Shown: positions 37,134 to 63,294 of the stretch, piece by piece
How the letters are laid out: the number at the start of each line of letters is the position of its first letter
How positions within the stretch are numbered: position 1 is the stretch's first letter
Translations under genes and position numbers: made by a program
DNA from: a virus
Virus record (IMG/VR): IMGVR_UViG_3300027754_000075
Location: 1 to 64,000 of that record
DNA length: 64,000 nt
Reading direction: 5' to 3' (one strand)
The notes under the pieces: generated by a model
Seen by the model: only the letters and a program-made list of their open reading frames with translations
Database searches by the model: none
Told to the model about the DNA's origin: nothing

Positions 37134-37194
37134 TTATGGCACCTTTATTATCACGACTTGGTTTAGGAAGAAGTGGTTTTGGATTTGGTAAGAA
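37079..37194 (+). repeat. 116-bp direct repeat, copy 1
   Basis: Identical to 38871-38986. It covers the end of the shaft remnant, the spacer and the first 19-20 codons of the adhesin. Confidence 0.95.
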
Positions 37195-38086
37195 CTCTGG
37201 TAGTGTCCCTTTTTCTGCTACTGGTGGCACAAAAACAACTTCTGGTTTGTATACAATTCATACTTTTACAACACCAGGTTCAGAAACTTTTACCGCATCC
37301 GGAAGACAAACTAATGTTGAAATTATTGCGGTAGGTGGTGGTGGTGGTGGTGGAGGAGGAGATTGTGGTCCACCAGATTTCCCATCAGCTGATGGAATAT
37401 CAGGATCTTCTGGAGGAATATCAAAAGGAACTTTTACTTTCTCTCCTGGAAATTATACAGTATATGTTGGTGGTAGGGGAGATGCTGGGGGAGGACACAA
37501 CACCGGAACAAATAATAGTGGATCTGGGTTTAGAAATAACGGCGGAGGAGATCCTGGTGGTCAAGGTGGTGATGGGAGTTCTGGAAATGGCGGCGGCGGA
37601 GGTGGTTTTTCTGGAGTATCGCAACCTCCTGGTCCAGGGGCTATTTTTTATATTGTAGCTGGTGGCGGCGGTGGTGGTGGAGGTGGAGGTGCTCCTGGTG
37701 GATCTCCAGGAGGTGGTAGTTCGAGAGGTGGTTCTGGTTCCTATGTACCTGGTTCAACATCTGGACAAAATGGTCCAGGAAGAACTGGAGATAATGGTGG
37801 ATTTGGCGGTGGTGGAGGAGGATATACTGGACCGGGTGTTATAACCACAATTCCTGCTGGAGGTGGAACTAGAAATAATGGTGGATCAAATTTTACTAAC
37901 CCTATAGGAACAATCTTAAGTACACATGGAGGTGGAGGTGGAACATCGAGACCAGCAGATGCTCCTCCTGCAACTTATCCAACAATACCTAGTCCTGCTG
38001 GATCTGGTGGTGGTGGTGCCAGTTGTGGAGGAGGAAGTGCTGGTATGGGGCAAGATGGAGTTATTGTAATACGATATTTAACTTAA
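37136..38086 (+). CDS. Gly-rich tail fibre tip adhesin
   Basis: A 316-residue protein. Residues 1-19 are MAPLLSRLGLGRSGFGFGK, identical to the adhesin at 38928. After a short Thr-rich beta segment it becomes a Gly-rich domain (NVEIIAVGGGGGG at about 62, many GGGGG blocks) ending in the typical QDGVIVIRYLT strand of Gly_rich_2-type domains. Such tips probably form a polyglycine-II sandwich whose loops contact the receptor. Only a collapsed shaft remnant precedes it, so it may rely on another shaft for mounting. Confidence 0.75.
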   Translation: MAPLLSRLGLGRSGFGFGKNSGSVPFSATGGTKTTSGLYTIHTFTTPGSETFTASGRQTNVEIIAVGGGGGGGGGDCGPPDFPSADGISGSSGGISKGTFTFSPGNYTVYVGGRGDAGGGHNTGTNNSGSGFRNNGGGDPGGQGGDGSSGNGGGGGGFSGVSQPPGPGAIFYIVAGGGGGGGGGGAPGGSPGGGSSRGGSGSYVPGSTSGQNGPGRTGDNGGFGGGGGGYTGPGVITTIPAGGGTRNNGGSNFTNPIGTILSTHGGGGGTSRPADAPPATYPTIPSPAGSGGGGASCGGGSAGMGQDGVIVIRYLT

Positions 38087-38092
38087 AAAAAT

Positions 38093-38100
38093 GATAAATA
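38093..38100 (+). promoter_or_regulatory. Late promoter box
   Basis: GATAAATA, 38 bases before the shaft gene at 38131. Confidence 0.6.
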
Positions 38101-38130
38101 ATATTATACTAAGCCGAGTAATCAACGACG

Positions 38131-38925
38131 ATGGCAATTAAAATTTCAGGAACTACTGTTATCGATGACAGTAGGAATATACAAAATATAGGCATAGCCA
38201 CCGCTACTACATTCGTTGGAGCACTTACTGGAAATGCGACTGGATTATCTGGCACTCCTAATATTACTGTTGGTAATATTGTAGGTGTAGCACTTACATT
38301 ATCTGGTAATCTTACGGTTAATGGTACTCAAACCATTATCAATACTACTAACTTAGAAATCACAGATCCATTAGTCGGTATTGGTTCTGGTAATACCACA
38401 GACGCTCAAGCAGATGGTGATGGTATCCAGATTTATGGTGCAACTAACAAGACATTAACATTTAATAATACCAAAAAAGCATTTGAGACTAATGTTGCTT
38501 GGGCACCAAACGAAACAAGGATTATTACAGGTGCAGAAAAAATCCATAGACAATCTGGCAATACCGTAACACTTACCTATAACTCTTCATCAAGTTCTAA
38601 TGTTGGATATACTACTAATCCAAGTGGTGATGTAACAGTAAATGTTGTAGGTATTCCAACATCAAGTGATTTTGACGATCATTCTATAAGTTTTACAGTT
38701 ATCACAAGATCCACAGGAACTGCAAGAACTTGTACGGCAGTAACACTAAATGGTGTAACTGAAAATATTCGTTGGGCTGGTGGTTCTTTGAGTGGAGCAC
38801 TTTCAGGTGTAACGACTGCAACAGGACACGCAATCTTTAGTTTTACTGGTATCAATACTGTTGGTTCTGCAAGTACAACTACAAACTATGAAGTCTTTGG
38901 TATTGTAAGTGGAGGTTTCTTCTAA
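38131..38925 (+). CDS. Short tail fibre shaft protein with connector domain
   Basis: A 264-residue protein. A short N-terminal fibre part (GIATATTFVGALTGNATGL) is followed by the module NLTVNGTQTIINTTNLEITD. The last 130 residues form a conserved connector (EKIHRQSGNTVTLTYN, TNPSGDVTVNVVGIPTSSDF, GTARTCTAVTLNGVT, TGINTVGSASTT). Three other fibre genes carry this connector or a similar ending, each directly before a different adhesin. It probably trimerises and holds the tip protein encoded two bases downstream. Confidence 0.75.
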   Translation: MAIKISGTTVIDDSRNIQNIGIATATTFVGALTGNATGLSGTPNITVGNIVGVALTLSGNLTVNGTQTIINTTNLEITDPLVGIGSGNTTDAQADGDGIQIYGATNKTLTFNNTKKAFETNVAWAPNETRIITGAEKIHRQSGNTVTLTYNSSSSSNVGYTTNPSGDVTVNVVGIPTSSDFDDHSISFTVITRSTGTARTCTAVTLNGVTENIRWAGGSLSGALSGVTTATGHAIFSFTGINTVGSASTTTNYEVFGIVSGGFF

Positions 38926-38986
38926 TTATGGCACCTTTATTATCACGACTTGGTTTAGGAAGAAGTGGTTTTGGATTTGGTAAGAA
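38871..38986 (+). repeat. 116-bp direct repeat, copy 2
   Basis: Identical to 37079-37194. It marks the duplication boundary of the shaft-adhesin cassette. Confidence 0.95.
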
Positions 38987-39947
38987 AACTATTGCTGCTA
39001 TTTTTAGTGCTTATGGGGCACAATTTCAAAACGCAAACTCTTTTAGTGATTCAAGCACATCTGCAATTGATGGCACAGCAAATTATGGGGCTGTTTTTTC
39101 CTATGGAGGATCAGAAGTTTTTATCTATGGTAATTTTTCCGCAGCCGATATCCAAACAACGATTAATTTTTATACAGGACCAGGCACTCCAGCACCTTTG
39201 ACTCCAAATATTGTTGGTTTGAGGGGATATAGACTTTATAGATATCCTAATAGTGCTGCTACTGGTAGTGTTGTTAAATTTACTGGTGAAGGGGTTGGAA
39301 CTGATAATCATTTGATTCACGTAAGAGGTAATGGATCAACTCAAGGGTATGTAAGTGCTCCGCATCCAAATTGGAAAACATTAGATCCCGCAGGAGAATA
39401 TACTTTACTTGCAAATAAAACTTTCTTTCAGGGTGGAATAACTGGTGTATTCTCTGGAAATAATACAACTATTGATAATGATGCACCGACAAGAAATAGG
39501 GTTAAATTATTAGCAGGGTCTGGGGGATCACCTGGAAGTGGTGATATTGCAGGAGGACCTGCTGGGGGAAATGGATATTCTTTCGGAGCTGGTTGTAGAG
39601 GTGCTGGTGGGGGTGGAGGAGGAACTCAAAATGCTGCTGGGGGTGGTGGTGGCGGGCCGCACAGAACAGGAACTCCTCCATTACCCGGAAGTGGATTTTC
39701 TGGTGGAAGGGGATCTGGGGGTGCTGCAGGTAGTGGATATGATGGATGGTATGGTGGTGGTGGTGGTGGCAGCGATGGTGGTGATTGCAGTGGTAGTGGG
39801 TACGGTGGTGGAGGGTCAAGTAGAGTTGATCCTGGACTTTCTGGAACAAATTCATTTTACCCACCAGCAGGTCCTTCAGTTACTCCGTACTGGTACATGA
39901 ATGTTCCTACTTGGGGAAGTGGTAAAATTATAGGACATAAATCATAA
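38928..39947 (+). CDS. Gly-rich tail fibre tip adhesin
   Basis: A 339-residue protein with the same 19-residue N-terminus as the adhesin at 37136 but a different body. Residues 20-190 are beta-rich (FIYGNFSAADIQTTINFY, HLIHVRGNGSTQGYV). Residues 190-320 are Gly-rich (GGSPGSGDIAGGPAGGNGYS, GGGGGGSDGGDCSGSGYGGG). It is probably the receptor-binding tip mounted on the shaft encoded just upstream. The shared N-terminus with a swapped body is what recombination in the 116-bp repeat would produce. Confidence 0.75.
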   Translation: MAPLLSRLGLGRSGFGFGKKTIAAIFSAYGAQFQNANSFSDSSTSAIDGTANYGAVFSYGGSEVFIYGNFSAADIQTTINFYTGPGTPAPLTPNIVGLRGYRLYRYPNSAATGSVVKFTGEGVGTDNHLIHVRGNGSTQGYVSAPHPNWKTLDPAGEYTLLANKTFFQGGITGVFSGNNTTIDNDAPTRNRVKLLAGSGGSPGSGDIAGGPAGGNGYSFGAGCRGAGGGGGGTQNAAGGGGGGPHRTGTPPLPGSGFSGGRGSGGAAGSGYDGWYGGGGGGSDGGDCSGSGYGGGGSSRVDPGLSGTNSFYPPAGPSVTPYWYMNVPTWGSGKIIGHKS

Positions 39948-39975
39948 CTTAAATTATTTTTGTTATTTTAGAATT

Positions 39976-40572
39976 ATGAAAACTTTTTTTGATTTTATAT
40001 ATGTGGGAGAAAATATTGTTTCTTCTTGTGATTGTAAAAATTTAATAAAATATTTTGAAAAGCATAAAGAACTTCAGGAACCAGGAAAACAAGGAAACCG
40101 TGATATTAATAAAGAATTAAAATCTTCAACAGATATTTGTTTTATTCCGGAAGATTCTTCAAATAAAGAATGCGTTAGACATCTTAACCCTTTTCTAAAA
40201 TCTCTTGATAAAGAAGTTTTAGATGTTTATCTAAAAAGATTTGAATTAGGTCTCACTCAAATGGAAAAATGGTTGTTATGTCCATATTTTAACATTCAAA
40301 GATATTTTCCTGGAGAAGGTTATTTTAATTGGCATTCTGAATCATCTTCCAAGATGTCTGCGAATAGAAAGTTTGTTTGGATGTTTTATTTGAATAGTGT
40401 TAAAAATGGAGGAACAGAATTTTATCATCAAAATTTATGTACAGAAGCAAAGGAAGGTTCTTTGGTTATATGGCCTGCTGATTGGACACATTTGCACAGA
40501 GGACAAATTGGACAAAATGAAGTAAAATATATTTTGACCGGATGGTATACTTTTAATGGAGAAGCTTCTTAA
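39976..40572 (+). CDS. 2-oxoglutarate/Fe(II)-dependent oxygenase
   Basis: A 198-residue double-stranded beta-helix oxygenase. The metal motif is His120-Ser-Glu122 (FNWHSES) with the distal His in WTHLHRG (172/174) and Lys184 as a candidate 2OG anchor. The line MFYLNSVKNGGTEFYH is a typical DSBH strand pair. Such enzymes hydroxylate proteins, sugars or small molecules; the substrate is unknown. It opens an AT-rich island of six such genes directly after the adhesins. Confidence 0.82.
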   Translation: MKTFFDFIYVGENIVSSCDCKNLIKYFEKHKELQEPGKQGNRDINKELKSSTDICFIPEDSSNKECVRHLNPFLKSLDKEVLDVYLKRFELGLTQMEKWLLCPYFNIQRYFPGEGYFNWHSESSSKMSANRKFVWMFYLNSVKNGGTEFYHQNLCTEAKEGSLVIWPADWTHLHRGQIGQNEVKYILTGWYTFNGEAS

Positions 40573-41127
40573 ATGTTTAAAATAAGATCGGACAATATGT
40601 TTTCATTACCAATCTACACTGTTAGAACACAGAATTGGAAAGAAAAAAAGAAAAAAATAAAAAAAGAAATCAATTTTAAAAATATAGAAAAAAAAGAACT
40701 TCATACTTTTGGAACAGATAGGCAAAATGATGGTAAATCATATATAAAACATTTTAGTAATATTTTTAAAGAAGAATTGGATCTTTTTTTGGATGAAATA
40801 AAAAAAGAATCTATGATTATAACTGACATGTGGACTGTCAGATATAGACACTCAGAATATCAATCAGTTCATAATCATGGTTCTTTTGGATTTTCCTCAG
40901 TTCTTTATTTGGATTTCAATTCAAAACTTCACGATACAACTAATTTTATTTCACCATTTAATGATTTTTATACAGATCATTTAACTTGGTATGTTCCATA
41001 TGATATTGAAGAAGGAGATTTTTTATTTTTTCCTTCAGTAGTCCTTCACCATTGTACTCCAAATTTTTCCTTTATAACTAGAAGATGTATAGGATTTGAT
41101 ATTAAGTTTGAACTACCTAGGAGTTAA
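40573..41127 (+). CDS. 2OG-Fe(II) oxygenase-like protein
   Basis: A 184-residue protein with the pattern of the cyanophage 2OG-Fe(II) group: MWTVRYRHSEYQSVHNHGSF (His100, His102), SSVLYLDF, then EEGDFLFFPSVVLHHCTPN (His159/160) and RRCIGFDI. The acidic metal ligand of a classical H-x-D motif is replaced by H-x-H, so activity is less certain. A GGAG element lies about 12 bases upstream of ATG 40573. It abuts the previous stop. Confidence 0.72.
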   Translation: MFKIRSDNMFSLPIYTVRTQNWKEKKKKIKKEINFKNIEKKELHTFGTDRQNDGKSYIKHFSNIFKEELDLFLDEIKKESMIITDMWTVRYRHSEYQSVHNHGSFGFSSVLYLDFNSKLHDTTNFISPFNDFYTDHLTWYVPYDIEEGDFLFFPSVVLHHCTPNFSFITRRCIGFDIKFELPRS

Positions 41128-41128
41128 A

Positions 41129-41824
41129 ATGACTTTTACTGATGAACAAATAAAAATACAACAAAAAGAAAGATATCTTTCATGTTGGAGTCGGAATGAA
41201 AATTTTGACACAGATGGATATCTTTTTATTAAAAATTTTTTAGATCTAGAAAATTTAAATCATCCAAAAGATGTTATTCCGGGAATAAAAGAATATTTTG
41301 GAAACATAAATTTGTGGGATCATAGGAATGAAGATCAAGTACCAGGATCCTCGTCAAGAATAAAATATCCTCCATATAAAAAATTATATTATGAAACGAA
41401 AGAAAAAATTGAAAATATATTAGGAAGAAAACTTTACACAACATATTACCTTGATAGAATATACTACCCAAATCAACAACTTTATAAACATTTGGACAGA
41501 GATGCTTGTGAGATTTCTGTGTCTATTCACTTATCTTCAAATCTAAAAGAAAATTGGCCTTTTAAATTGGAAACAAGAACTTGGTATACGAATAAAAAAA
41601 TGAAAGAACTTTGGAAAGAAGGTGAAGAAGTAGAGATTCTTTTCAATCCCGGAGATGCAATAATTTACATGGGATGTGAAGTTCCACACTGGAGAGATCC
41701 TTTAAAATCGAAACATAATAAATTGAGTCGTATTTTTAAAAATGATGATACATACTATCATCAATTATTTTTTCATTATGTTTTTTCAAATGGTGATAGG
41801 GCACATTATTATCGACATGTATGA
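41129..41824 (+). CDS. 2OG-Fe(II) oxygenase (PhyH-like)
   Basis: A 231-residue oxygenase. The N-terminus (FDTDGYLFIKNFLD) and the core His121-Leu-Asp123 (YKHLDRDACEIS), NPGDAIIYMGCEVPHWRDP (His187) and LFFHYVF resemble phytanoyl-CoA or prolyl-hydroxylase type enzymes. ATG 41129 has a strong AGGAG nine bases upstream. A longer frame from 41096 would overlap the previous gene and lacks such a site. Substrate unknown. Confidence 0.8.
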   Translation: MTFTDEQIKIQQKERYLSCWSRNENFDTDGYLFIKNFLDLENLNHPKDVIPGIKEYFGNINLWDHRNEDQVPGSSSRIKYPPYKKLYYETKEKIENILGRKLYTTYYLDRIYYPNQQLYKHLDRDACEISVSIHLSSNLKENWPFKLETRTWYTNKKMKELWKEGEEVEILFNPGDAIIYMGCEVPHWRDPLKSKHNKLSRIFKNDDTYYHQLFFHYVFSNGDRAHYYRHV

Positions 41825-42479
41825 AAAAAATAAAAAAAATATGGAAAAAACTTTAAAAGATTTAAATGAGACTTGGAAAGAAACTCCTTTTGAAAAAAAA
41901 CACTTTTTAGATACTTATGATAATGAATTTTTTAAATTTAAAAATAAATTAGATTTAAGAATTCTAGAACTTGGAATTGATAAAGGCGGATCTCTTGAAC
42001 TGTGGGAATCTTATTTTTCTAACTTATCCTTATTAGTTGGAGTTGAAAAAGACAATTCAAAAATAGAGGGAAATTTTGGTGATAAAATCAGAATTGAAAT
42101 AGGAGATTTGAGTAAAATAGAATTTTATGATAGAATAAAAAGATATGGATCATTTGATATTATTATTGATGATGCATCACATAAAGCATCGGATATAATT
42201 TTATCTTTCAATAATCTTTTCCCAATCCTTTCTGTTGGTGGAATATATTGTATTGAAAATGTTTATTACTCAGGAACTGGAGAGTACAATAACCAATCCC
42301 TTCAAAAATTTATTCAAGATTTGATTATAAATGCAAATGGAATTACTGATTGTTTAGATTTGCCCGAGAGAATGAATCAATTTTCTTGGTGGATAAAATC
42401 TATTCATATAGAAAATCAATTAATTATTATTAGAAAAGGATTATGGAACTATGAGAAAAGACATTCTGGTTGTAGATAA
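41817..42479 (+). CDS. Class I SAM-dependent methyltransferase
   Basis: A 220-residue protein (start at ATG 41817, inside the previous gene's stop). The SAM-binding motif is RILELGIDKGGSLELW. Later blocks are LVGVEKD, IEIGDLSK, FDIIIDDASHKASDIILSF and GGIYCIENVYYSG. The DDASH block and the arrangement recall O-methyltransferases of macrolide or sugar tailoring and cephalosporin-hydroxylase-like families, which act on glycans or secondary metabolites. It sits among oxygenases, suggesting a shared substrate. The extreme A-runs near the start leave ATG 41841 possible. Confidence 0.8.
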   Translation: MYEKNKKNMEKTLKDLNETWKETPFEKKHFLDTYDNEFFKFKNKLDLRILELGIDKGGSLELWESYFSNLSLLVGVEKDNSKIEGNFGDKIRIEIGDLSKIEFYDRIKRYGSFDIIIDDASHKASDIILSFNNLFPILSVGGIYCIENVYYSGTGEYNNQSLQKFIQDLIINANGITDCLDLPERMNQFSWWIKSIHIENQLIIIRKGLWNYEKRHSGCR

Positions 42480-42975
42480 CTTTATAGGACCAACAGATCT
42501 TGGTGCAGCATATTTAGATTTAAGAAACAATTTTTATTGGAATGTTGCTTCAGATGCTCCAGGATCAAATATAAGAAAGGCTGCTTTTGGAAGAGGATTT
42601 GAGCATCAAGATCTTTTAAAAGCATATGATACTATTCCTATGGTAAGTTATTTTGATAATTACATTAAAAGCAGAGGATTGCCAAACTGTGGGTCATTAA
42701 GACAATTTTATGTCAATTGTGTTAAACCTGGAGATAAATTTAACTATCATGAAGATAGATCAGGAAGCACTGTTTTGATATACGTAAACCCAGTATGGAA
42801 ATGGCATTGGGGATCTGGTACAAAATTTAAAAAAGGTTTTAAAACTTTTATCGTTAAACCAAAACCAGGGAGAATGATTTGTTTTCCTGGCAAAACAAAA
42901 CATAAACCCATTCCCCCAAATTTTTGGTATAATGATTTTGGTAGATTGTCTATTGCATTTCAATATGAGTTATAA
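42451..42975 (+). CDS. 2OG-Fe(II) oxygenase
   Basis: A 174-residue compact DSBH enzyme. Metal ligands are His100-Glu-Asp102 (NYHEDRSGSTVLIYVNP) and His151 (KTKHKPIPP); Arg165 (GRLSIAFQYEL) is the likely 2OG anchor. It starts within the end of the methyltransferase, implying coupled translation. Its 3' end overlaps the convergent sulfotransferase gene by 16 bases. Confidence 0.82.
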   Translation: MRKDILVVDNFIGPTDLGAAYLDLRNNFYWNVASDAPGSNIRKAAFGRGFEHQDLLKAYDTIPMVSYFDNYIKSRGLPNCGSLRQFYVNCVKPGDKFNYHEDRSGSTVLIYVNPVWKWHWGSGTKFKKGFKTFIVKPKPGRMICFPGKTKHKPIPPNFWYNDFGRLSIAFQYEL

Positions 42976-43577
42976 TTAAATAATTGATAATCTTTGAAAT
43001 AATACTCTCGAATCCAACTTTTTACTTCATCCTCACATTTTAATTTATCATAAAAATCTGTTGGTAATCTATCATAAGTATATCTTTTACATTTAACTGA
43101 CAAATTAACATTAAAATTTTCACTTATCCATTGCAAAAAATTTTCACCAAATCCATCTTCATATTTCCATACTTTTGTAGTTGGAGATAAAAATTTATAC
43201 TGATCTAAAAACCAATTTGTTTCATAACTTGTTATCTCTTTTTCAAAAGTTAAGTAACTGAACAAATTTTCTTTGCTTGAAAGTATAAAATCTATATTAA
43301 TTTTATTATTATGCAAAACTTGACTTATTGAAGAAATGAATTTATTATATGGATCTCTAACCACACAAAATTTTGGCAAATCTTTTACATTTAAATAATA
43401 ATCATATAATGGATAATGTAAATGATGTTGGTTTACTCCTCTAATTTGAGATTCATCTTTTTTTGAATTCCATTCATTTGCAATAAATAATTTTATGACA
43501 TGTCTACCTGCAGTTCTTGGTATATGAACAAAATATAATTCTCTTTCTTTATCAACAAGTTTGGGCATCAGATACAT
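42960..43577 (-). CDS. Sulfotransferase family protein
   Basis: A 205-residue protein with the PAPS-binding 5' loop at residues 16-25 (FVHIPRTAGR, the Sulfotransfer_2 VHIPKTAG variant) and the 3'-phosphate motif CVVRDPYNKFISS near residue 89. It would transfer sulfate from PAPS to a sugar or protein. It is the only reversed gene in the island. It overlaps the upstream oxygenase tail-to-tail and diverges from the next oxygenase across 20 AT-rich bases that must hold both starts. No ribosome-binding site is evident. Confidence 0.8.
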   Translation of the reverse strand: MYLMPKLVDKERELYFVHIPRTAGRHVIKLFIANEWNSKKDESQIRGVNQHHLHYPLYDYYLNVKDLPKFCVVRDPYNKFISSISQVLHNNKINIDFILSSKENLFSYLTFEKEITSYETNWFLDQYKFLSPTTKVWKYEDGFGENFLQWISENFNVNLSVKCKRYTYDRLPTDFYDKLKCEDEVKSWIREYYFKDYQLFNYNSY

Positions 43578-43597
43578 TAAATAATTATAGATTATAT

Positions 43598-44227
43598 ATG
43601 GATATAAAATTACATTCTCTTTTTCCGACCGCTGTTATTTCAGTTCTTGATAATAATTTTAAATTAACTCAAGAAGAAAAGAAAGTGATTTGGAAATATA
43701 AATTAGATGAAAGTGATAATTATCACAACTGTTATGCAAGTAAAAGTGGTAGAATATTGGAAGATCGTCGTCTCAAACGTTTAAAAAAACATTGTCAACA
43801 TTATCTTGATTTATATGTAAAAGATATAATGAAGTGCGATAATAAGATTCAAATTACAAATTCATGGGGTAACTATTCTTTCACGGGCAATTGCCACAGA
43901 AATCATCGTCATTCAAATAGTGTTTTAAGTGGTATTTATTATGTGCAATGTAATAATTCAATTCCTATTTTACAATTTGAAAGTCAAACATCTAGATATT
44001 TCTTAGAATATAGAGTTGAGGAACAAACTGTTTTTAATAGTTCAACATATCAGATAAAATTAGAGGATGGTATGTTAGTAATTTTTCCATCACACATCTG
44101 GCATTCTGTTCCCGAAAATAAATCATCTAATTGGAGAATATCCATGGCATTTAATTCTTTTCTTTTGGGAGAAATTGACAATTATGGATATGAAGAATTG
44201 AAAATTAAAAGCACCAATCATGTCTAA
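43598..44227 (+). CDS. 2OG-Fe(II) oxygenase family protein
   Basis: A 209-residue protein started at ATG 43598 (MDIKLHSLFPTAV), which avoids overlap with the divergent sulfotransferase. It has the cyanophage-type pattern SWGNYSFTGNCHRNHRH (His103-x-His105), SVLSGIYYVQ, then FPSHIWHSVPENKS and WRISMAFN. Its order of elements closely matches the next gene, so the two are probably old paralogues. Substrate unknown. Confidence 0.78.
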   Translation: MDIKLHSLFPTAVISVLDNNFKLTQEEKKVIWKYKLDESDNYHNCYASKSGRILEDRRLKRLKKHCQHYLDLYVKDIMKCDNKIQITNSWGNYSFTGNCHRNHRHSNSVLSGIYYVQCNNSIPILQFESQTSRYFLEYRVEEQTVFNSSTYQIKLEDGMLVIFPSHIWHSVPENKSSNWRISMAFNSFLLGEIDNYGYEELKIKSTNHV

Positions 44228-44855
44228 TTCTACAATATTCCCTCTTTTTTCAACGCCAGTATATAAAACAGAAATTTTATTTAATGAAAAAGAACAATAT
44301 TTTTTAAAAAATAAATTAGATAAAATAAATTATTTAAAATATGACTCTGATAATGGATATTCAACAAAACAAAAAAATATATTAAATATATCTTCTCTTT
44401 TTAATATAAAACGCCAAATAAATGATCATGTTAATAAGTATGTTTTTGAAACTTTATGTTTAAACAAAATTGATTTGTACATAACTTCTTCCTGGATAAA
44501 TCTTCACCAAAAAGGAAATTATGCACAACCACATATACATCAAAATTCTATTTTTAGTGGAGTTTTATATTTAGAAGTTCCAAACGAAAATTGTGGACAA
44601 ATTACCTTTCACTTTCCTTTTCAATTACCAACCTTTACATCAAATACAATTTATCCAGGAGTAAAAAATAGGAATATATACAATTCACACTCTTGGAGTT
44701 TTAATCCAAAATCAGGAGATTTATTAATTTTTCCTTCTCATCTAATGCACGATGTTGGAATAAATCAATCAGATCAAAACAGATATAGTTTGTCATTTAA
44801 TTATTTTGCTAGAGGTAAAATATCAGGAGAAAAAACAAAAGAATTATATATTTAA
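44220..44855 (+). CDS. 2OG-Fe(II) oxygenase family protein
   Basis: A 211-residue paralogue of the preceding gene, overlapping it by eight bases. It begins IFPLFSTPVYKTEI, a common start in this family. The core reads SSWINLHQKGNYAQPHIHQN (His105-x-His107) and FSGVLYLEVP, then KSGDLLIFPSHLMHDVGINQ and RYSLSFNYFARG. A late promoter box overlaps its stop and serves the following structural genes. Confidence 0.82.
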   Translation: MSNSTIFPLFSTPVYKTEILFNEKEQYFLKNKLDKINYLKYDSDNGYSTKQKNILNISSLFNIKRQINDHVNKYVFETLCLNKIDLYITSSWINLHQKGNYAQPHIHQNSIFSGVLYLEVPNENCGQITFHFPFQLPTFTSNTIYPGVKNRNIYNSHSWSFNPKSGDLLIFPSHLMHDVGINQSDQNRYSLSFNYFARGKISGEKTKELYI

Positions 44856-44862: not shown

Positions 44863-44879
44863 ACTTAAAAAGGTATAAA

Positions 44880-45180: not shown

Positions 45181-45513
45181 ATGGCAGTTCCAGCAGTCAA
45201 TATTACAATTGAACAGGGTGCGGATTTTGCATCTTCATTTACGATTACAAATGCAAATGGTTCTGTATATTCATTAGTAGGTGCAAGTGCAGTCGCAAAA
45301 ATCAAAAAGTTTCCAGAGTCCACTACTTCTTATTCTTTCTCAACCACGATTACAATCGCAACAGGTGTGATTGCTCTTGCGATGACCGATACTGTTACTT
45401 CCACAATCACTCCAGGAAGATATTTTTATGATATCTTGGTCACAAACAGTTCCGGACTCAAAACCAGAGTGATTGAAGGAATGGCTCTGGTGACTGCAGG
45501 TATCTCGACATAA
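45181..45513 (+). CDS. Small beta-rich virion protein
   Basis: A 110-residue protein with an Ig or BppU-like strand pattern: VNITIEQGADFASSFTITN, VGASAVAKIKK, then GRYFYDILVTNSSG and a VIEGMALVT end. Similar small domains form N-terminal fibre or baseplate adaptors in other tailed phages. It is co-oriented with the next gene, each with its own late promoter overlapping the preceding stop. Exact role unknown. Confidence 0.65.
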   Translation: MAVPAVNITIEQGADFASSFTITNANGSVYSLVGASAVAKIKKFPESTTSYSFSTTITIATGVIALAMTDTVTSTITPGRYFYDILVTNSSGLKTRVIEGMALVTAGIST

Positions 45514-49566: not shown

Positions 49567-50700
49567 ATGGCAAAGTTAGTCAGTGGTCGGTTACCAAGAT
49601 TAAATGTAGGAATTGCTTCTTATAGTGAAAATCAAACAACACTATCAGTTGTAGGGATTTCATCTTTTCAGCAAGTAGTTCTAAATGGTTCAGTCAGTAC
49701 TGGTACAACTACTGGGACTTCGGGGCAATATTTAAAATCTGTTGGAATAGGTGTAACTTGGGCATCATTTCCAACATTAAGAACCGGAAATGTTTTTACT
49801 GCAGGAGTTGCACAAACTTCCTTTGCAGTTTCTTATAATGTTGGTTTTGTTGATGTTTATATAAATGGTGTTCGTTTAACAGACAGTGAATTCACCGGAA
49901 CAAGTGGAACTTCTATTGTTCTTAATGAATCTTGTTTTGGTGGAGAAACAGTAGATATTCTTGCGTATAACACTACAAGCACTGGTTCGGGAGGTGGAGG
50001 AATCAGCACTGAATCTCAAACTTTAAATAATGTATTAGGACTTGGGAATACCTCATCCAATGGGATGAGTGTTGGTGTTATTACTGCAACTTCTTTTGTT
50101 GGAAATTTAACAGGAACAGCAACCTATGCGACTAATGCTGGTATAGCAACTTATGCGACTAATGCTGGTATAGCAACTTATGCGACTAATGCTGGAATAG
50201 CAACTTATGCTACTAATGCTGGTATAGCAACAAATGCTCAAGGTTTAACTGGTACTCCTAATATATCTGTGGGTATCGTTACAGTAACAGACTCTCGTAT
50301 TCAATCTGTTGCTGAAAAGACAACACTTGTGAATGGTAACACAGTAAGTCTTGTTTATAACACTGGTGGTGGTAATATTGCAATCTGTACCAATCCAAGT
50401 GGTGATATTACACTGAATGTAACTGGTATCCCTACTGATAGTACATTTGATAATTACTCACTTGCCTTTAGTGTGATTGTATCAAATACAGGAACAGCAA
50501 GAAGTTGTACTGCAATTAATCTGAATGGATTATCAAGAACAATTAAATGGTTTGGTGGTTCTCTTGCAGCAGCAATCACTGGCGTGACTACATCAAATGG
50601 ATATGATAGTTATAGTTTTACTGGAATCAATACTGTAGGTTCTGCAAGTACAACTGCAAATTATATTGTACTTGGAAGTGTAAATGGAAGTTATAGATAA
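49567..50700 (+). CDS. Tail fibre shaft with connector domain
   Basis: A 377-residue shaft. Residues 70-140 hold a DVYINGVRL-type domain also present in the 1265-residue fibre. Residues 186-222 are four 9-residue repeats (TYATNAGIA). The last 130 residues are the connector (VNGNTVSLVYN, TNPSGDITLNVTGIPT, GTARSCTAINLNGLS, TGINTVGSASTTANY). It overlaps the following LamG-type adhesin by one base (TAATG), consistent with strict co-production of shaft and tip. Confidence 0.75.
   Translation: MAKLVSGRLPRLNVGIASYSENQTTLSVVGISSFQQVVLNGSVSTGTTTGTSGQYLKSVGIGVTWASFPTLRTGNVFTAGVAQTSFAVSYNVGFVDVYINGVRLTDSEFTGTSGTSIVLNESCFGGETVDILAYNTTSTGSGGGGISTESQTLNNVLGLGNTSSNGMSVGVITATSFVGNLTGTATYATNAGIATYATNAGIATYATNAGIATYATNAGIATNAQGLTGTPNISVGIVTVTDSRIQSVAEKTTLVNGNTVSLVYNTGGGNIAICTNPSGDITLNVTGIPTDSTFDNYSLAFSVIVSNTGTARSCTAINLNGLSRTIKWFGGSLAAAITGVTTSNGYDSYSFTGINTVGSASTTANYIVLGSVNGSYR
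50122..50229 (+). repeat. Four 27-bp tandem repeats
   Basis: Units at 50122, 50149, 50176 and 50203, each encoding TYATNAGIA with only one- or two-base differences. Related units encoding YA(D/S)NAGIA occur near 56514-56660 in another fibre gene. Confidence 0.9.
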
Positions 50701-51461
50701 TGTCTCCAATTTTAACTAGAATTCCATATAGCAAGGGACTTGGTTCAAGAACTTTTATTGCAGTTAGTGTTCCTATTATTTCAAACGGATTAATATTATC
50801 CCTAGACGCAGGAAATGCTGCTTCTTATCCTGGTTCTGGAACTACTTGGACTGATGTGAGTGGCAATATTAATACCGGAACTCTTGTGAATGGTGTTGGG
50901 TATTCTGCGAGTAATGGAGGTGCTTTGACTTTTGATGGGACGAATGATTATGTTCTTGCAAATAATACAAATTTGAATTCTTTAAGTTTAACTTCTAGAT
51001 TTTCAAACACAAGTGTTTCTCACTTTTCTTGGGTTTATCCAACTGGTGCTGGTGTATTAGTTTCTGAATTGGGACAAACAGCACCAAATTCAGGATACCA
51101 CGATAGCAATATTGAAATAAGTGCAGGTGGGGCATTTAGTTTTTCAACTTGGCACAATGGTCTTACAAGTAAGGTAGTTTCTTCAAATCAATCATTTAAT
51201 ATTTGGTATTATGTTGGATTTACTTATGATGGAACAACTTTAACTGCTTATATAAATGGTTCATCAATTGGAACAACCACTTTTGCAAGAGTGCCACCAA
51301 GTCAAACTCATTATGCTTTATTTGCTACTGATGCTACTAATATGGGAACAGGAGGTTATGGTGTAGGAAGATGTGCTGCTTTTTCTGTATACAACAGAGC
51401 ACTCACAGCAGCAGAAGTCTCACAAAACTTCCAAGCACTTAGAGGAAGATTTGGAGTTTGA
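50700..51461 (+). CDS. LamG/concanavalin-like tail fibre tip adhesin
   Basis: A 253-residue protein. The short N-terminus MSPILTRIPYSKGLGSRTF replaces the MAPLLSRLG type but keeps the M-x-P-(L/I)-L-x-R start. The rest is a LamG-like jelly roll: GLILSLDAGNAASYPGSGT, GGALTFDGTNDYV, NIWYYVGFTYDGTTLTAYIN and FSVYNRALTAAEV. These domains bind glycans in many systems. It is probably the receptor-binding tip for the shaft directly upstream. Confidence 0.8.
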   Translation: MSPILTRIPYSKGLGSRTFIAVSVPIISNGLILSLDAGNAASYPGSGTTWTDVSGNINTGTLVNGVGYSASNGGALTFDGTNDYVLANNTNLNSLSLTSRFSNTSVSHFSWVYPTGAGVLVSELGQTAPNSGYHDSNIEISAGGAFSFSTWHNGLTSKVVSSNQSFNIWYYVGFTYDGTTLTAYINGSSIGTTTFARVPPSQTHYALFATDATNMGTGGYGVGRCAAFSVYNRALTAAEVSQNFQALRGRFGV

Positions 51462-57507: not shown

Positions 57508-57523
57508 ACTAAAAAAAAATAAG

Positions 57524-57931
57524 ATGGCACTTAAAAGAACTAAAATACTCAATGTTCAGTCCATAACAGGTATTGCAACTGTTGGTATTTTGACTGTTGG
57601 TATTACATCTACTGCTGGTGGTGTTGGTATTGCCTCTACGTCTTACCTTCGTGGTGTTATAATGCATAATACTGGTCTTGCGACTTGTACCTCATCACTT
57701 TACATTTATCCAACTGGAACCTCAACGCCTGTGACTGGTGTTGGTATTACCGCACATCGTCTTGTAAGAGTAGACCTTGCATCTAATGAGACTTTCTTCT
57801 TTGAGACAAACTATCCAATCGTAATGACTGGATCTGATAAGATTGTTGTAGAGGTTACTGCTCCCAATAGTGGTGGTGTTGGTATTGGTAGTGTCGTGAA
57901 CTATCAAATCCTTGGCGATACTGATATTTAA
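57524..57931 (+). CDS. Small beta-rich virion protein
   Basis: A 135-residue protein of short strands: GIATVGILTVGITSTAGGVG, SSLYIYPTGTSTPVTG, then RVDLASNETFFFETNYPIVM and a VVEVTAPNSGG end. It is probably a small fibre- or baseplate-associated subunit, similar in size and layout to the protein at 49206. The next gene follows after 11 bases. Confidence 0.65.
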   Translation: MALKRTKILNVQSITGIATVGILTVGITSTAGGVGIASTSYLRGVIMHNTGLATCTSSLYIYPTGTSTPVTGVGITAHRLVRVDLASNETFFFETNYPIVMTGSDKIVVEVTAPNSGGVGIGSVVNYQILGDTDI

Positions 57932-57942
57932 GAGGTATAAAG

Positions 57943-58596
57943 ATGGGTGCAAGAAGTACTAGAAATACAACACAAAATAATCGCAGTGACGGACACTTAT
58001 TAGAGTACTTCCGTAATACTTTTCTTCGTGGTGGTGGTGGTACTAATGCTTCTGTTACCGCAAGCTATGTGATTGTGGGCGGCGGCGGTGGCGCTGTAAT
58101 TAGTGGCGCTGATGGCTTGGGCGGTGATGTAATAAATGGAGATACACCAATTCCAAATGGGTCCTATTCAATAACTATTGGATCCGGTGGCAGCAGAGGC
58201 GGAGGGCTTGGAAGTTCATCTTCTTTTATGAGTTTTATCGCTGCGGGCAGCACCAGAACCACAACGGTAACAGTTAACGGGGAAACATTCTCAGGCAAAG
58301 ACGCAGGCTCGCCAAATTCAGCAATAAAAGGATCAGGCGCTTTAGCTTCTTCTATCTATTTTGTAGCAGCTTCTTGCAGCAATGGCGAATCTAGCGAAAG
58401 AAGATGTGATGTTTCAGGAGGGACTTGGGATCCAGGTGGATATAGAAACGGGGATGGAAACAATGGAGTTGTTATACTGACAATACCAACAATTTACAAC
58501 TCAAGAATTGTTGCATCGGGCGCAGTTGTAACAACAAGCGGCAGTAATACAATATATAGATTTAATTCCTCCGGTTCTTTGGTGACATCATCATGA
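57943..58596 (+). CDS. Gly-rich tail adhesin with MGAR-type N-terminus
   Basis: A 217-residue protein. The start MGARSTRNTTQNNRSDGHLL, then EYFRNTFLRGGGGTN, is a distinct conserved cyanophage fibre N-terminus, different from the M(A/S)P type. The body is Gly-rich (SYVIVGGGGGAVISG, ITIGSGGSRGGGLGS) and ends in a small beta domain. From about 58077 the DNA uses many GGC, GCG and GCC codons, unlike neighbouring genes, suggesting recent acquisition of the body. It overlaps the next gene by four bases. Confidence 0.72.
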   Translation: MGARSTRNTTQNNRSDGHLLEYFRNTFLRGGGGTNASVTASYVIVGGGGGAVISGADGLGGDVINGDTPIPNGSYSITIGSGGSRGGGLGSSSSFMSFIAAGSTRTTTVTVNGETFSGKDAGSPNSAIKGSGALASSIYFVAASCSNGESSERRCDVSGGTWDPGGYRNGDGNNGVVILTIPTIYNSRIVASGAVVTTSGSNTIYRFNSSGSLVTSS

Positions 58597-58919
58597 AACT
58601 CTACAAAATGGCCCAAATTGATCCAACAACTAATAAAATTTTGCACATCTCAATATGGGATGATCCAAGCAAAGCGCCTGATTTGGTTGAGCTTCCAGAT
58701 CTGGCAATTGTCGGAATTACACTAGAAGAGCTAACCCAGAGAATAGAATCTGAAAAAGCAAAAATTCAGGAGATAGACAGATTAAGAGAAGAACGGGCAG
58801 AAAAGGATTACTTAATGCGGAGGGAAGCACCAGTACCTTATCCAACTGATGGAGAAAGATATACTTGGAACGAAGAAACTATAAGTTGGGATTTAGTAAG
58901 TACTGTTGTAACTAACTAA
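58593..58919 (+). CDS. Probable tail fibre assembly/accessory protein
   Basis: A 108-residue protein. A beta start (KLYKMAQIDPTTNKILHISI) is followed by a charged coiled coil (LTQRIESEKAKIQEIDRLRE). The end, APVPYPTDGERYTWNEETIS then W, shares the PTDG-x-x-Y-x-W motif of the 58-residue protein at 44880. The small size, coiled coil and position right after an adhesin resemble tail fibre assembly chaperones, but I see no direct Tfa homology. Codon use is similar to the preceding adhesin. Confidence 0.62.
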   Translation: MKLYKMAQIDPTTNKILHISIWDDPSKAPDLVELPDLAIVGITLEELTQRIESEKAKIQEIDRLREERAEKDYLMRREAPVPYPTDGERYTWNEETISWDLVSTVVTN

Positions 58920-58923
58920 CTAA

Positions 58924-58931
58924 CATAAATA
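58924..58931 (+). promoter_or_regulatory. Late promoter box
   Basis: CATAAATA, 24 bases before ATG 58948. Confidence 0.62.
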
Positions 58932-58947
58932 ACTAAAAAGAAATAAG

Positions 58948-59829
58948 ATGTCGGTCACAAGAGTACAACTAGTTGGAAATGTAAGTACTGGTGCAAGTTT
59001 TGCAGGTATTGTGACTGCAACATCTTTTAGTGGTAATGTAACTGGTACTGCAAGTACTGCTTCTTTTGCAACGACTTCTTTTGGTCTTTCTGGAAGTCCT
59101 AATATTACTGTAGGAACTGTTACTGGTAATCTTACTGGTAATGCAACTGGATTATCTGGTACTCCTAATATTACTGTTGGAAATATTGTAGGTGCAGCAC
59201 TTACACTTTCTGGTAATCTAACTGTTAATGGTACTCAAACCATTATCAACACTACAAACCTTGAAATCACAGACTCTTTGATTGGTATTGGTTCTGGTAA
59301 TACCACAGATGCTCAAGCAGATGGTGATGGTATCCAGATTTATGGTGCAACTAATAAGACATTAACATTTAATAATACTAAGAAAGCATTTGAGACTAAT
59401 GTTGCTTGGGCTACAACTGATACAAGGTTTATAAGTGTTGCAGAAAAACTTGTAAGAGTAGATGGAAATACTGTTTCATTAGTATACAATACAACTGGTG
59501 CTAACATTGGATTTGCAACTAATCCATCAGGTAACATTACTTTAGCAGTTACTGGTATTCCAACATCAAGTGATTTTGATAATCACGTCATTACTTTTAG
59601 TGTATTTGTAAATCAAACTGGTACTGCAAGGTCTTGTACTGCAGTAACACTAAATGGAGTCACACCAACGATTAAATTTGCAGGTGGTTCTTTGAGTGCT
59701 GCTATTTCTGGTGTAACCACAACATCTGGTTTTGACATTTATAGTTTTACTGGAATCAATACAGTAGGAAGTGCAAGTACAACTGCTAACTATGCAGTTC
59801 TTGGTGTTGTGAATGGAGGATTTAGATGA
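58948..59829 (+). CDS. Tail fibre shaft with connector domain
   Basis: A 293-residue paralogue of the 38131 shaft. It shares NLTVNGTQTIINTTNLEITD and QADGDGIQIYGATNKTLTFN at near-identical DNA. The connector (VDGNTVSLVYN, TNPSGNITLAVTGIPTSSDF, GTARSCTAVTLNGVT, TGINTVGSASTTANY) ends in GVVNGGFR. It overlaps the downstream Gly-rich adhesin by ATGA, so shaft and tip are translationally coupled. Confidence 0.77.
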   Translation: MSVTRVQLVGNVSTGASFAGIVTATSFSGNVTGTASTASFATTSFGLSGSPNITVGTVTGNLTGNATGLSGTPNITVGNIVGAALTLSGNLTVNGTQTIINTTNLEITDSLIGIGSGNTTDAQADGDGIQIYGATNKTLTFNNTKKAFETNVAWATTDTRFISVAEKLVRVDGNTVSLVYNTTGANIGFATNPSGNITLAVTGIPTSSDFDNHVITFSVFVNQTGTARSCTAVTLNGVTPTIKFAGGSLSAAISGVTTTSGFDIYSFTGINTVGSASTTANYAVLGVVNGGFR

Positions 59830-60755
59830 GTCCTATTATATCAAGAACTGGTTTTAGTCTTGGATTTGGAAGACGTAGAGGTGGTGGTGCGATACAGAGC
59901 ATAAAACCATTGAATATTTCTCCATCAGTATCTGGGAAAAGTATTTGGGATTTGGGAGTTGATGGAAAACTAACGTTAAATACAGGTACAGATTACACAG
60001 TAACAGTTGATAGTCCTATTACTGTTGATTTTAAAATCTGGGGAGCAGGTGGCGGTGGTGGTTCTTCAGGTGGTGGTGGCGGAGGTGGCTCTGCTACAGG
60101 CACGATGAATCTTTTGAACGGAACCTCATATATTATAAGTATTGGTTCTGGCGGATACAAAACTACTGATTATGTTGCCACAAGTTCTCAAGGAGGAGGT
60201 GGTGGAGTTGGCCCAGGATCCTACCCTGCTGGAACTGGTGGTGGATATAGTGGAATATTTAGAACTAGTAAAACTCAAGGAAATGCTGTAGTTATTGCCG
60301 GAGGTGGTGGTGGTGGGGGATACAATGGCGCAGGTGGTGCTGGAGGTTACCCATCCGGATCTAATGGTGGTGGTCCATCTGGAGGAGGTGGAGGCACTCC
60401 CACTGCTGGGGGTGCTGGGGGTGCTGGGGGTGGTGGCACTGGTCAAAGTGGATCTGCTTTAACTGGTGGATATTCTGTATCGGGTTCATTAGGTGCTCCT
60501 GGTGGAGGAGGTGGCGGTGGATATTATGGTGGCGGTGGCGGTGGATCATCCCAAGCTGATACTGGAGGAGGTGGAGGAGGTGGATCAAACTACCAAAATC
60601 CAACATACCTCACATCAGTCACTCAATATTCTGGTAGTGGTACCACTGCAGGAAATTCTTCAGATCCTGACAGAGGAAGTTCTGGTAGTGGTCAACCTTT
60701 TCCAGGTTCTTCTGGATCCCCATATGCTGTACCAGGATCTATTGTTTTATCTTAA
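59826..60755 (+). CDS. Gly-rich tail fibre tip adhesin
   Basis: A 309-residue protein. The N-terminus MSPIISRTGFSLGFGRRRGG belongs to the M(A/S)P-x-x-SR-x-G docking type. A short beta part (TLNTGTDYTVTVDSPITVDF) leads to a Gly-rich domain with many GGGGGG blocks (KIWGAGGGGGSSGGGGGGG) and an AVPGSIVLS end. It is the presumed receptor-contacting tip of the coupled shaft. It differs from the other Gly-rich tips in the body sequence. Confidence 0.77.
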   Translation: MSPIISRTGFSLGFGRRRGGGAIQSIKPLNISPSVSGKSIWDLGVDGKLTLNTGTDYTVTVDSPITVDFKIWGAGGGGGSSGGGGGGGSATGTMNLLNGTSYIISIGSGGYKTTDYVATSSQGGGGGVGPGSYPAGTGGGYSGIFRTSKTQGNAVVIAGGGGGGGYNGAGGAGGYPSGSNGGGPSGGGGGTPTAGGAGGAGGGGTGQSGSALTGGYSVSGSLGAPGGGGGGGYYGGGGGGSSQADTGGGGGGGSNYQNPTYLTSVTQYSGSGTTAGNSSDPDRGSSGSGQPFPGSSGSPYAVPGSIVLS

Positions 60756-60818
60756 CTCGTTTACTAATCACCATAAGAACTCTCAAATAATGAAATGATT
60801 ACTCATCATTCATAAGAA

Positions 60819-60826
60819 CATAAATA
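60819..60826 (+). promoter_or_regulatory. Late promoter box
   Basis: CATAAATA, 24 bases before ATG 60843, with the same downstream leader as 57500 and 58924. Confidence 0.62.
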
Positions 60827-60842
60827 ACTAAAAAGTAATAAT

Positions 60843-62291
60843 ATGGCTCTCAACTTTCCTAATAGTCCTACACTTAATCAAGTTTACACTGATACCACAT
60901 CTGGGTTCTCATATCAGTGGAATGGAACTGTATGGATAAGTTTTAGTGCAGCATCATCAAACCAAATCAAAGTACTTGACGATATTTCTGGTTCTTTCAC
61001 AGGAATCGCATTTACCTTTGCACTTACCTCAAGTAGCGCATCAATCTCACCACCGAATGCACAATCACTGATTATCAACCTTGGTGGTGTAATCCAAGAC
61101 CCATCTGATGATTATATTGTTTCTGGAAGTAATATTATATTCTCCACTGCTCCTAATAATGGATTAAGTTTCTCTGGAGTTTCATTAGGACCTGCAATCC
61201 CAGTCACTACAATACCATCTGGTACTGTGACTGGTGGTTCATTTACAGTTGCTGGTATTCTTTCCACAACAAACCTTTTTGTTTCTGGTATTTCTACCTT
61301 TGTTGGTCTTGCGACTCATACTGGAACAATCTTTGGAAGTAACTTATCACTAACTGGTGTTGCGACTGCAACCGAGTTTGATATCTCTGGATCATCAAAT
61401 ACACTTACTGCTGGTGGTCTTAGTGTTGGTGTTGCGACTGCAACCGAGTTTGATATCTCTGGATCATCAAATACACTTACTGCTGGTGGTCTTAGTGTTG
61501 GTGTTGCAACTGCCACTACATTTGTTGGAGCACTCACTGGTAATGCAACTGGTCTTTCTGGTACTCCTAATATTACTGTTGGAAATATAACTGGTTCTGC
61601 AGCAACTTTTACAAACTTAACTGTTAATGGTACTCAAACCATTATCAATACTACTTCATTAGAAATCACAGATAAGAATATTGGTATTGGTAGTACAAGT
61701 TCTCCAACTGATGCACTTGCTGATGGTGCTGGTATTACGATTTATGGAACAACAAATAAAACAATCACCTGGGAAAGAGATACTGGATGCTTTGAGTATA
61801 ATCAACCAAGTAAGTTTAAGGGTGTTATTGAGACTGTATCCACTGCATCAACTTATGACCTAGGTGGTGGTAGAGTTGTTCTTGAGTTAGATGTAAGAAA
61901 TGCAACGACTTATACTCATAGTCTAACGAATGGTACAGTAGGTATTGTGTCCTTTAAGAATATGCCTGCGGATACTGGTGTTTCTAATGGTACAACAATC
62001 ACTGTCCTGTTTACTCAAAACTCTGCTGGTACTGCAAATACAACAGTAGCAACTGGTATTGGTACTAACTGTTTTATTGTTGGATTTGAGGATGGAGCAA
62101 CAGTCGCAGGTATTTCAACCAGAGCACTTGTAGGTAGTGCAACGACTGTAACACTCTCAACAACTGGTAGTGATAGAGACTTTGTATCATTCTTTGTGCA
62201 TTATACTGGTGGTACGAATACTACTGCATCAAGTTATCAGGTTTATGCCACCAAGAACGGTGGATTCCGTCAAGGAACCGTAGGAGTTTGA
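60843..62291 (+). CDS. Tail fibre shaft protein (482 aa)
   Basis: The N-terminus (MALNFPNSPTLNQVYTDTTS then GFSYQWNGTVW) is a common phage fibre start. Residues 50-125 form an adaptor-like domain with INLGGVIQDPSDDYIVSG. The shaft includes a perfect 24-residue duplication (VATATEFDISGSSNTLTAGG) and the shared NLTVNGTQTIINTTSLEITD unit. The C-terminal 150 residues (STYDLGGGRVVLELDVRNAT and SYQVYATKNGGF) form an end domain different from the usual connector but in the same position, four bases before an adhesin gene. Confidence 0.74.
   Translation: MALNFPNSPTLNQVYTDTTSGFSYQWNGTVWISFSAASSNQIKVLDDISGSFTGIAFTFALTSSSASISPPNAQSLIINLGGVIQDPSDDYIVSGSNIIFSTAPNNGLSFSGVSLGPAIPVTTIPSGTVTGGSFTVAGILSTTNLFVSGISTFVGLATHTGTIFGSNLSLTGVATATEFDISGSSNTLTAGGLSVGVATATEFDISGSSNTLTAGGLSVGVATATTFVGALTGNATGLSGTPNITVGNITGSAATFTNLTVNGTQTIINTTSLEITDKNIGIGSTSSPTDALADGAGITIYGTTNKTITWERDTGCFEYNQPSKFKGVIETVSTASTYDLGGGRVVLELDVRNATTYTHSLTNGTVGIVSFKNMPADTGVSNGTTITVLFTQNSAGTANTTVATGIGTNCFIVGFEDGATVAGISTRALVGSATTVTLSTTGSDRDFVSFFVHYTGGTNTTASSYQVYATKNGGFRQGTVGV
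61359..61502 (+). repeat. Perfect 72-bp tandem duplication
   Basis: Units 61359-61430 and 61431-61502 are identical in DNA, adding 24 residues to the shaft. Perfect identity points to a recent slippage or recombination event. Confidence 0.95.
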
Positions 62292-62295
62292 TACT

Positions 62296-63294
62296 ATGGC
62301 ACCTCTTTTTACTGGAAGTAAGTTTGCGTTTGGTTTAAGTCCTCTTGTTGCTGCTGCTGTTGAACCTGTTGTTGCAGGAGTTTATTTGGATTATGGTTGG
62401 TATGGAGGAGCAGAGGGAAGTACAGCCGTAGATAGAATAGATTGGGCAAATGACACAGTTACTGCGTCTGCCAGAGGATCTAATCGTGCATCAAGCAGCA
62501 GAGGTGGAGGTTTGTCAAATCTTACACATGGTTGGTTTTCTGGTGGTTATATAGAAGCACTCGGTGGTGGCATGAGCACGGTTGATAGAATAACCTATGC
62601 AAGTGACCTGTCAGGAGGAAGTGCAAGAGCAAACTGCCCACAATCATCAAATGGGCGTCCAGGTGGATTTAGCAATACCACATATGGATATTGGGGTCCA
62701 GGAATGAGTAGCAACGGTGGTGCCGCAAGTAGTGAGATTACCAGAGTTGATTTTGCTAATGATTTAACTGCTCCCGCAAACAGAACTAATACTGCATCTC
62801 CGTATATAGCACATACTGGAGGTGCTTCTGATTTCTCAACCTATGGATGGTTGTTAGGCGGTGGGTTCGGTGGCGCAGGGGGGGTAACTGGTCCAACCTG
62901 GTCATCAGTTTATAGATTGACCTATGCAAGTGACACTTCTGCATTATCTACAAGAGGAAATTTGGCAAATATGTCAACTGGATTTGCATGTGGAAATCAA
63001 ACACATTGTTGGATTGGTGGATCTAATGATAGTCTTGTAAGTTCAATAACTAGAGTAACATTTTCAAATGATTTAGCAACATCAACCAATAGAGGAAATT
63101 TGGTAAGAGCAATGCGCCGCAGTGGATCTGGAAGCAATACTTATATTTGGTGGGCCGGTGGTTATGTGAGTGGTACTTCTTATAGTGACGTTGAAAGAAT
63201 GGAATATGTAAATGATTTATCAACACTCTCTCCAAGAGGTCCCATGTCTCTTTCTCGTACATGCTTGGCAACAAATCATATGACTTTGGGATAA
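62296..63294 (+). CDS. Propeller-like tail fibre tip adhesin
   Basis: A 332-residue protein. The start MAPLFTGSKFAFGLSPLVAA keeps the MAPL-x(7)-FG feature of the tip adhesins. The body holds about six repeats of 50-55 residues, each with a GW-x-x-GG strand, a (V/I)-x-R-(I/L)-(D/T)-(Y/W)-A-(S/N)-D strand and an R-x-N-type turn, the hallmark of a Kelch-like beta-propeller. This is a different fold from the Gly-rich and LamG tips, placed in the same genetic slot. It probably binds a host glycan or protein. Confidence 0.75.
   Translation: MAPLFTGSKFAFGLSPLVAAAVEPVVAGVYLDYGWYGGAEGSTAVDRIDWANDTVTASARGSNRASSSRGGGLSNLTHGWFSGGYIEALGGGMSTVDRITYASDLSGGSARANCPQSSNGRPGGFSNTTYGYWGPGMSSNGGAASSEITRVDFANDLTAPANRTNTASPYIAHTGGASDFSTYGWLLGGGFGGAGGVTGPTWSSVYRLTYASDTSALSTRGNLANMSTGFACGNQTHCWIGGSNDSLVSSITRVTFSNDLATSTNRGNLVRAMRRSGSGSNTYIWWAGGYVSGTSYSDVERMEYVNDLSTLSPRGPMSLSRTCLATNHMTLG

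Follow-up and report, generated by a model that had tools for sequence, protein, structure and literature searches.

In T-even phages one gp38 caps the gp37 trimer (PMC6851490); T2 gp37 and PP01 gp38 appear to be incompatible, and a chimeric PP01 gp38 whose first 113 residues come from T2 gp38 works on the T2 fibre (PMC12892980). We examined a comparable arrangement of fibre genes in positions 1 to 64,000 of the IMG/VR virus record IMGVR_UViG_3300027754_000075 (this whole 64,000-nucleotide stretch is termed the window), a record of 72.7 kb with tail and baseplate genes of T4/cyanophage type as judged by PHROG matches. Fibre shafts ending in a connector are followed here by genes for separate tip proteins. 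We consider it quite probable that these are class-matched shaft/connector-tip attachment cassettes of a T4-type cyanophage, in which the tip start docks on the connector and the tip body binds the receptor; the interpretation is supported at the genomic and evolutionary level, and from the sequences we infer the docking itself. A literature search, with subscription papers and preprints outside its coverage, found no description of this connector-tip pairing, and phage records searched with the region by megablast returned fragments only.

Pairing of connectors with tip starts

Connector relatives were gathered from IMG/VR using the window connectors as queries, which yielded 131 unique connector-tip pairs from 105 loci. 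Within the window, class A connectors end the shafts at 38131, 49567 and 58948, the class B connector ends the shaft at 60843, and the class C connector is encoded at 57524. The 60843 connector is a distant homologue of the 38131 connector (22% pairwise, hhalign probability 94.5%, E=8e-8); profile comparison detected no similarity of the class C connectors to A or B connectors. Throughout the 131 pairs the connector stops 0–4 residues before the end of its open reading frame (ORF) and the tip ORF begins −4 to +23 nucleotides (nt) from the connector stop; no fused shaft-tip gene was found among them (connector tail ≤4 amino acids, aa).

Each connector class is accompanied by its own tip start: M(A/S)P(L/I)(L/I)(S/T)R..GFGFG(K/R) for class A, M(A/S/T)P(I/L)FTG..FGFG for class B, and MG(A/V)(R/K)S(S/T)...DGHLLEYFRNTF..GGG for class C. 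Sub-classes are paired likewise; the connector ends VSGGYRRY (class A), AATDFRNAIV (class B) and VNGDTDV (class C) are found with the tip starts MAPIVTSLASIVKQFGIGA, MAPLT(T/S)G and MGVRSLGN..SF..KFGRTG, respectively. A single common docking motif is ruled out by the differing A, B and C starts, together with the absence of profile similarity between C connectors and those of A or B. The original prediction, made from the sequence alone, had placed most tips under one such start motif; the MAPL/MSPI starts are indeed all class A, except that tip 62296 (MAPLFTG..FxFG) groups with class B. Its single attachment rule stands insofar as short matched N-termini carry exchanged bodies, but has to be split into three or more classes, themselves subdivided, so that a tip would be compatible with its own class only.

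The tip-start patterns were composed after the pairs had been seen, and pattern-free tests of co-variation therefore provide the stronger evidence. Connector similarity was compared by Mantel test with the similarity of tip residues 1–28 and with that of the tip bodies. Coupling to residues 1–28 gave r=0.47 (A), 0.66 (B) and 0.63 (C), with p=0.0005 for each, whereas coupling to the bodies was −0.11, 0.00 and −0.02. Start coupling persisted at redundancy cuts of 0.9 and 0.8 (r=0.36–0.61 at 0.8, p≤0.011); at a cut of 0.7, where 9 class A and 8 class C sequences remain, clear significance was left in class B only. With sliding windows the coupling dropped to about 0 past residue ~20–30 in classes A and B and ~40 in class C, a sharp boundary. 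The class of a pair was recovered by nearest neighbour from the tip N-terminus in 125/131 cases, and from the body in 57/131. Conserved starts are written with several synonymous codons (for P, T and G), which argues that selection acts on the protein and that this is not simply conserved DNA.

Natural body swaps were also found. Tip 37136, with a class A start, has a body that over 291 compared codons shares 90% DNA identity with the body of a class B-start tip from another virus (L057:5341-6285), so that bodies evidently move between docking classes; similarly, L066:1910-2860 (B-type start) and L008:4411-5349 (A start) have a body in common and different starts. Conversely, two tips stand behind one class B shaft in locus L057 with the first 20 residues nearly identical and the bodies unrelated, and tandem same-class tips similar to these occur in L074. 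A Gly_rich_2 (PF21722) match at E≤0.001 was obtained for 74/118 tips (21/40 class A, 22/37 class B and 31/41 class C), Laminin_G_3 accounts for 4 (A), 2 (B) and 2 (C), and the remaining tips have ALK_LTK_GRD, F5/8 or no known domain; the palette of Gly_rich_2, Laminin_G_3 and ALK_LTK_GRD bodies recurs in every class. Co-variation, its boundary (about residue 25 in A and B, about 40 in C) and these swaps strongly support the earlier proposal that a match to the shaft is required of the short N-terminus, while the bodies are exchanged.

That connectors lie directly upstream of variable, motif-bearing ORFs was confirmed in both directions, cultured phages included. An independent converse scan, using DNA patterns of the tip starts alone against 2.9 million viral contigs, gave 27 matches, 26 of them directly behind a same-class connector (24 of 25 for class B, both of 2 for class A); the sole exception was the second of two tandem tips. 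Within the fetched loci, 110 of 2,331 unique ORFs (≥80 aa) bear a motif and 107 of these lie directly behind a same-class connector end, counting tip 37136 through the deletion scar described below; two of the other three are second tips in tandem and one is at a contig edge. A motif behind a wrong-class connector was seen neither among those 110 ORFs (0/110) nor among the 27 matches of the DNA scan.

The cultured Synechococcus phage Bellamy, whose virions have branched fibres on the head and baseplate (PMC5646251), contains at least five such pairs (gp32/33, gp37/38, gp43/44, gp50/51 and gp53/54). Phages S-H38, S-BM3, S-CREM1 and the actinomycetia phage DSL-LC01 each have a fibre gene and then, within about 20 nt, an ORF starting M(A)P-hydrophobic. 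This suggests that the pairing rule may be wider, and judged by these starts there may be further docking classes, also outside the cyanophages. The fibre genes of S-BM3, S-CREM1 and DSL-LC01 (L189, L190 and L191) are related to the S-H38 connector, and the ORFs after them begin MPIF.., MAPLITSF.. and MPVLSLLS...

Cassettes within the window

The window contains five shaft/connector-tip pairs and a further tip whose shaft was apparently deleted; together they represent three docking classes, and all are on the plus strand. Four of the pairs are those originally predicted. The shaft at 38131..38925 (class A connector, 38512-38922) is followed at +2 nt by a class A tip with a glycine-rich (Gly-rich) body (38928..39947), and the shaft at 49567..50700 (class A connector, 50290-50697) overlaps by 1 nt a class A tip with a LamG-like body (50700..51461; Laminin_G_3, E=2.4e-14). 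The shaft at 58948..59829 (class A connector, 59419-59826) overlaps by 4 nt a class A tip with a Gly-rich body (59826..60755, beginning MSPIISRTGFSLGFGRRR); the shaft at 60843..62291, with a class B connector (61821-62288) ending KNGGFRQGTVGV and a match to phrog_36132 (E=9.7e-80), is followed at +4 nt by a class B tip (62296..63294, beginning MAPLFTGSKFAFG; phrog_19111, E=8.7e-14). The predicted C-terminal connector common to three shafts was found to be about 135 residues long, those of 49567 and 58948 being 54–64% identical to that of 38131. Among the three predicted tip body types the Gly-rich and LamG bodies held up; the third, the repeat body of tip 62296, has no Pfam hit. A fifth pair had been overlooked: a class C connector without a shaft, made as a stand-alone 135-aa protein ending ILGDTDI (57524..57931; phrog_20100, E=4e-49), precedes a class C tip with a Gly-rich body (57943..58596, beginning MGARSTRNTTQNNRSDGHLLEYFRNTFLRGGGGTN). 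There are 70 loci homologous to this connector, and nearly all have a tip downstream.

The class A tip at 37136..38086 (beginning MAPLLSRLGLGRSGFGFGK, Gly-rich body) sits behind a fibre ending in Peptidase_S74 (35156..37045; Pfam E=1.3e-16, with tail fibre/baseplate PHROGs) and not behind a connector-bearing shaft. Between the two is an apparent deletion scar (37077..37133) in which an ATG is followed by what remains of the end of a class A connector, about 18 codons and the stop (MMLSTTTNYEVFGIVSGGFF; tblastn 94% to connector residues 247-264). The stretch 37079-37194 repeats 38871-38986 exactly, over 116 bp. In the related locus L131, a similar S74 fibre is directly followed by a gene sharing the shaft start of 38131. 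We read this, from the sequence, as a cassette whose shaft would have been lost and whose tip was kept; instead of a true shaft loss, there may have been a misassembly at the 116-bp repeat. Since residues 1–19 of tips 37136 and 38928 are identical, tip 37136 could take the place of tip 38928 by docking on the 38131 shaft. S74-ended fibres as such were rejected as tip carriers, as only the window scar case has a downstream tip among 6 unique cases.

Several further features were noted at these and related loci. At L131:2774-5656 a tandem pair of class C-like tips (beginning MVVRALGNSAASF and MSLRSLNNPIASF) stands behind one class C connector. At L010:2097-6843 no tip adjoins a B-type connector ending AVTDFRGLI, and two MPLSSG..K tips that resemble those of its class are found downstream behind a class A tip; this connector and these tips are possibly assembled in trans. 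Between the fibre cassettes of the window, 39976-44855 is a non-structural-looking block with several genes that by sequence resemble 2OG-Fe(II) oxygenases, one methyltransferase-like gene and one minus-strand gene (42960-43577). Oxygenase-like starts also occur in genes after tips in L008, L010 and L057, and the Bellamy annotation lists 2OG-Fe(II) oxygenases at that place. A small protein at 45181-45513 strongly matches phrog_3304, T5 L-shaped tail-fibre assembly (E=1.2e-22), hits an LtfC-like beta-sandwich family of Pfam weakly (E=0.0022), and is possibly another fibre adaptor. The baseplate/fibre region at 27575-33439 contains a 1,954-residue ORF without any Pfam match.

Proposed attachment and competing explanations

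We propose that each cassette would present a compact beta-sandwich connector, placed at the end of a fibre shaft or, in class C, forming a short protein by itself, and that a separately made tip protein, encoded at once after it, would by way of its start bind this probably trimeric connector. The docking element would comprise tip residues 1 to ~20–25 (A, B) or ~40 (C) and fit connectors of its own class only; the interchangeable C-terminal body would then bind the host surface. Tips of the same class could presumably substitute for one another, so that two same-class tips behind one shaft would be alternatives.

When a class B connector-tip chain was read through the stop and modelled as a monomer by AlphaFold2, the beta-sandwich connector and the tip body were both confident. 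By Foldseek, the PDB entry that the modelled chain matched best was the fibre of cyanophage Pam3 (7ypx, E=1.8e-4), and ALK/LTK glycine-rich domains came after it; S16 gp38 (6F45) was absent among the 50 matches listed, and no solved sequence relative of the connector was found in the PDB.

A number of observations weigh against the proposed docking. In the class B read-through monomer the start peptide was left unplaced, with a predicted local distance difference test score (pLDDT) <50 for residues 155-176, and in the class C monomer DGHLLEYFR formed a weak, undocked helix with the start at pLDDT ~50; as these models are monomers and the partner is presumably a trimer, they neither show nor exclude docking. 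Evidence for these proteins from structures, cross-links or mass spectrometry was not found. Coupling in class A is weaker and is gone once reduced to 9 very divergent connectors. Six connectors with downstream DNA gave no tip by the pairing rule, L055 and L159 being broken reading frames; connectors without a recognisable adjacent tip occur at L044, L081, L083 and L136, and at L010 (a weak class B connector). Lastly, linkage and recombination at the conserved junction could yield part of the pattern.

How many tip chains a connector trimer would carry is a sub-question that leaves the docking proposal in place. Trimeric tips on a connector trimer, and not one tip per trimer as for S16 gp38, are a tentative possibility that we do not favour: among solved structures the tip body is nearest in fold to the Pam3 fibre, a trimer, but trimerisation of Pam3 relies on a long helical domain at the N-terminus that is absent from these tips, and the finding of 0/131 fused pairs, which is weak evidence, is easier to understand if the chain numbers differ.

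An explanation by linkage, in which body-replacing recombination initiates within conserved junction DNA and the tip start has no binding role, seems unlikely to us. The exact 116-bp duplicate in the window spans precisely the connector-end/tip-start junction, and body replacement begins right after that junction, as this explanation would have it; however, the tip start is conserved as protein despite varied synonymous codons, it is the only tip segment that tracks connector subtype, and connector segments hundreds of nt distant track it as well as do adjacent segments. Neutral linkage would also leave unexplained why the starts are class-specific and strongly constrained. That the downstream proteins are shaft-dedicated folding chaperones outside the virion (like T4 gp38 or Mu/Pam3 Tfa) would suit their gene position directly after the fibre gene, Pam3 gp25 (PMC9608196) and T4 gp38 (PMC6851490) being chaperones of that kind, but we regard it as very improbable, as the bodies consist of domains of the recognition type (Gly-rich, LamG and the like) whose hypervariability and exchange would serve no purpose in a chaperone, the modelled body matched the Pam3 fibre and ALK/LTK domains and no chaperone, and Pfam and PHROG searches gave no chaperone-family match among window proteins or surveyed tips.

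Returning to class-matched docking, we lean modestly towards a broader form of it, whereby tip docking in cyanophages would follow a general plug-and-socket code: the short docking peptides would fall into mutually exclusive classes, and each class would be recognised by one connector family and no other. If true, such a code would give a phage several attachment specificities, with alternative tips on one shaft, and would allow new receptor-binding bodies to be acquired without re-evolving assembly. It would explain how cyanophages could quickly exchange host-recognition parts, the plug being kept and the body changed, and the pairing provides a rule by which receptor-binding tips can be recognised from cyanophage sequences, in which most such genes are annotated "hypothetical protein".

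Relation to known fibre systems

As in gp37-gp38 of T2, S16 and PP01, a separate tip protein is encoded directly after the fibre gene (131 pairs, −4 to +23 nt). The present tips are likened to gp38 also in that its N-terminal part attaches to the fibre, its Gly-rich distal part recognises the receptor, and an N-terminal swap restores compatibility (PMC12892980, PMC6851490). The attachment part of gp38 is, however, a helical bundle with three tryptophans, and here it would be a 20–40 residue peptide of several classes; the conserved tip starts have no conserved tryptophan and the model has no ordered N-terminal domain. Also unlike gp37-gp38, the connectors are beta-sandwich domains without a detectable PDB sequence relative, and there are several cassettes per genome, with unrelated connector types and with LamG and other non-glycine bodies. 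With a proposed short multi-class docking element, unrelated connectors and no helical tryptophan domain, we describe these tips as working like gp38 and do not file them as a member of that system. The T2/S16 analogy originally drawn thus remains the best functional one, but in fold the tip body comes closest, among solved structures, to the Pam3 fibre and not to S16 gp38.

Pam3 gp24 (7ypx), the best solved structural match, is described with a TNF-like and glycine-rich distal architecture; unlike the present tips, it docks to the baseplate via its own long N-terminal helices, has a separate chaperone, and lacks a shaft/connector cassette. The branched LtfA/LtfB fibres of T5-like DT57C are similar in that the first 45 aa of LtfB are proposed to attach to the other fibre and several specificities are carried (PMC4728585), but there are two fixed fibre proteins there and many class-coded exchangeable tips here. 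Compared with these systems, the connector-tip pairing is a well-supported novel variation on the tip-adhesin principle, with docking as its presumed basis.

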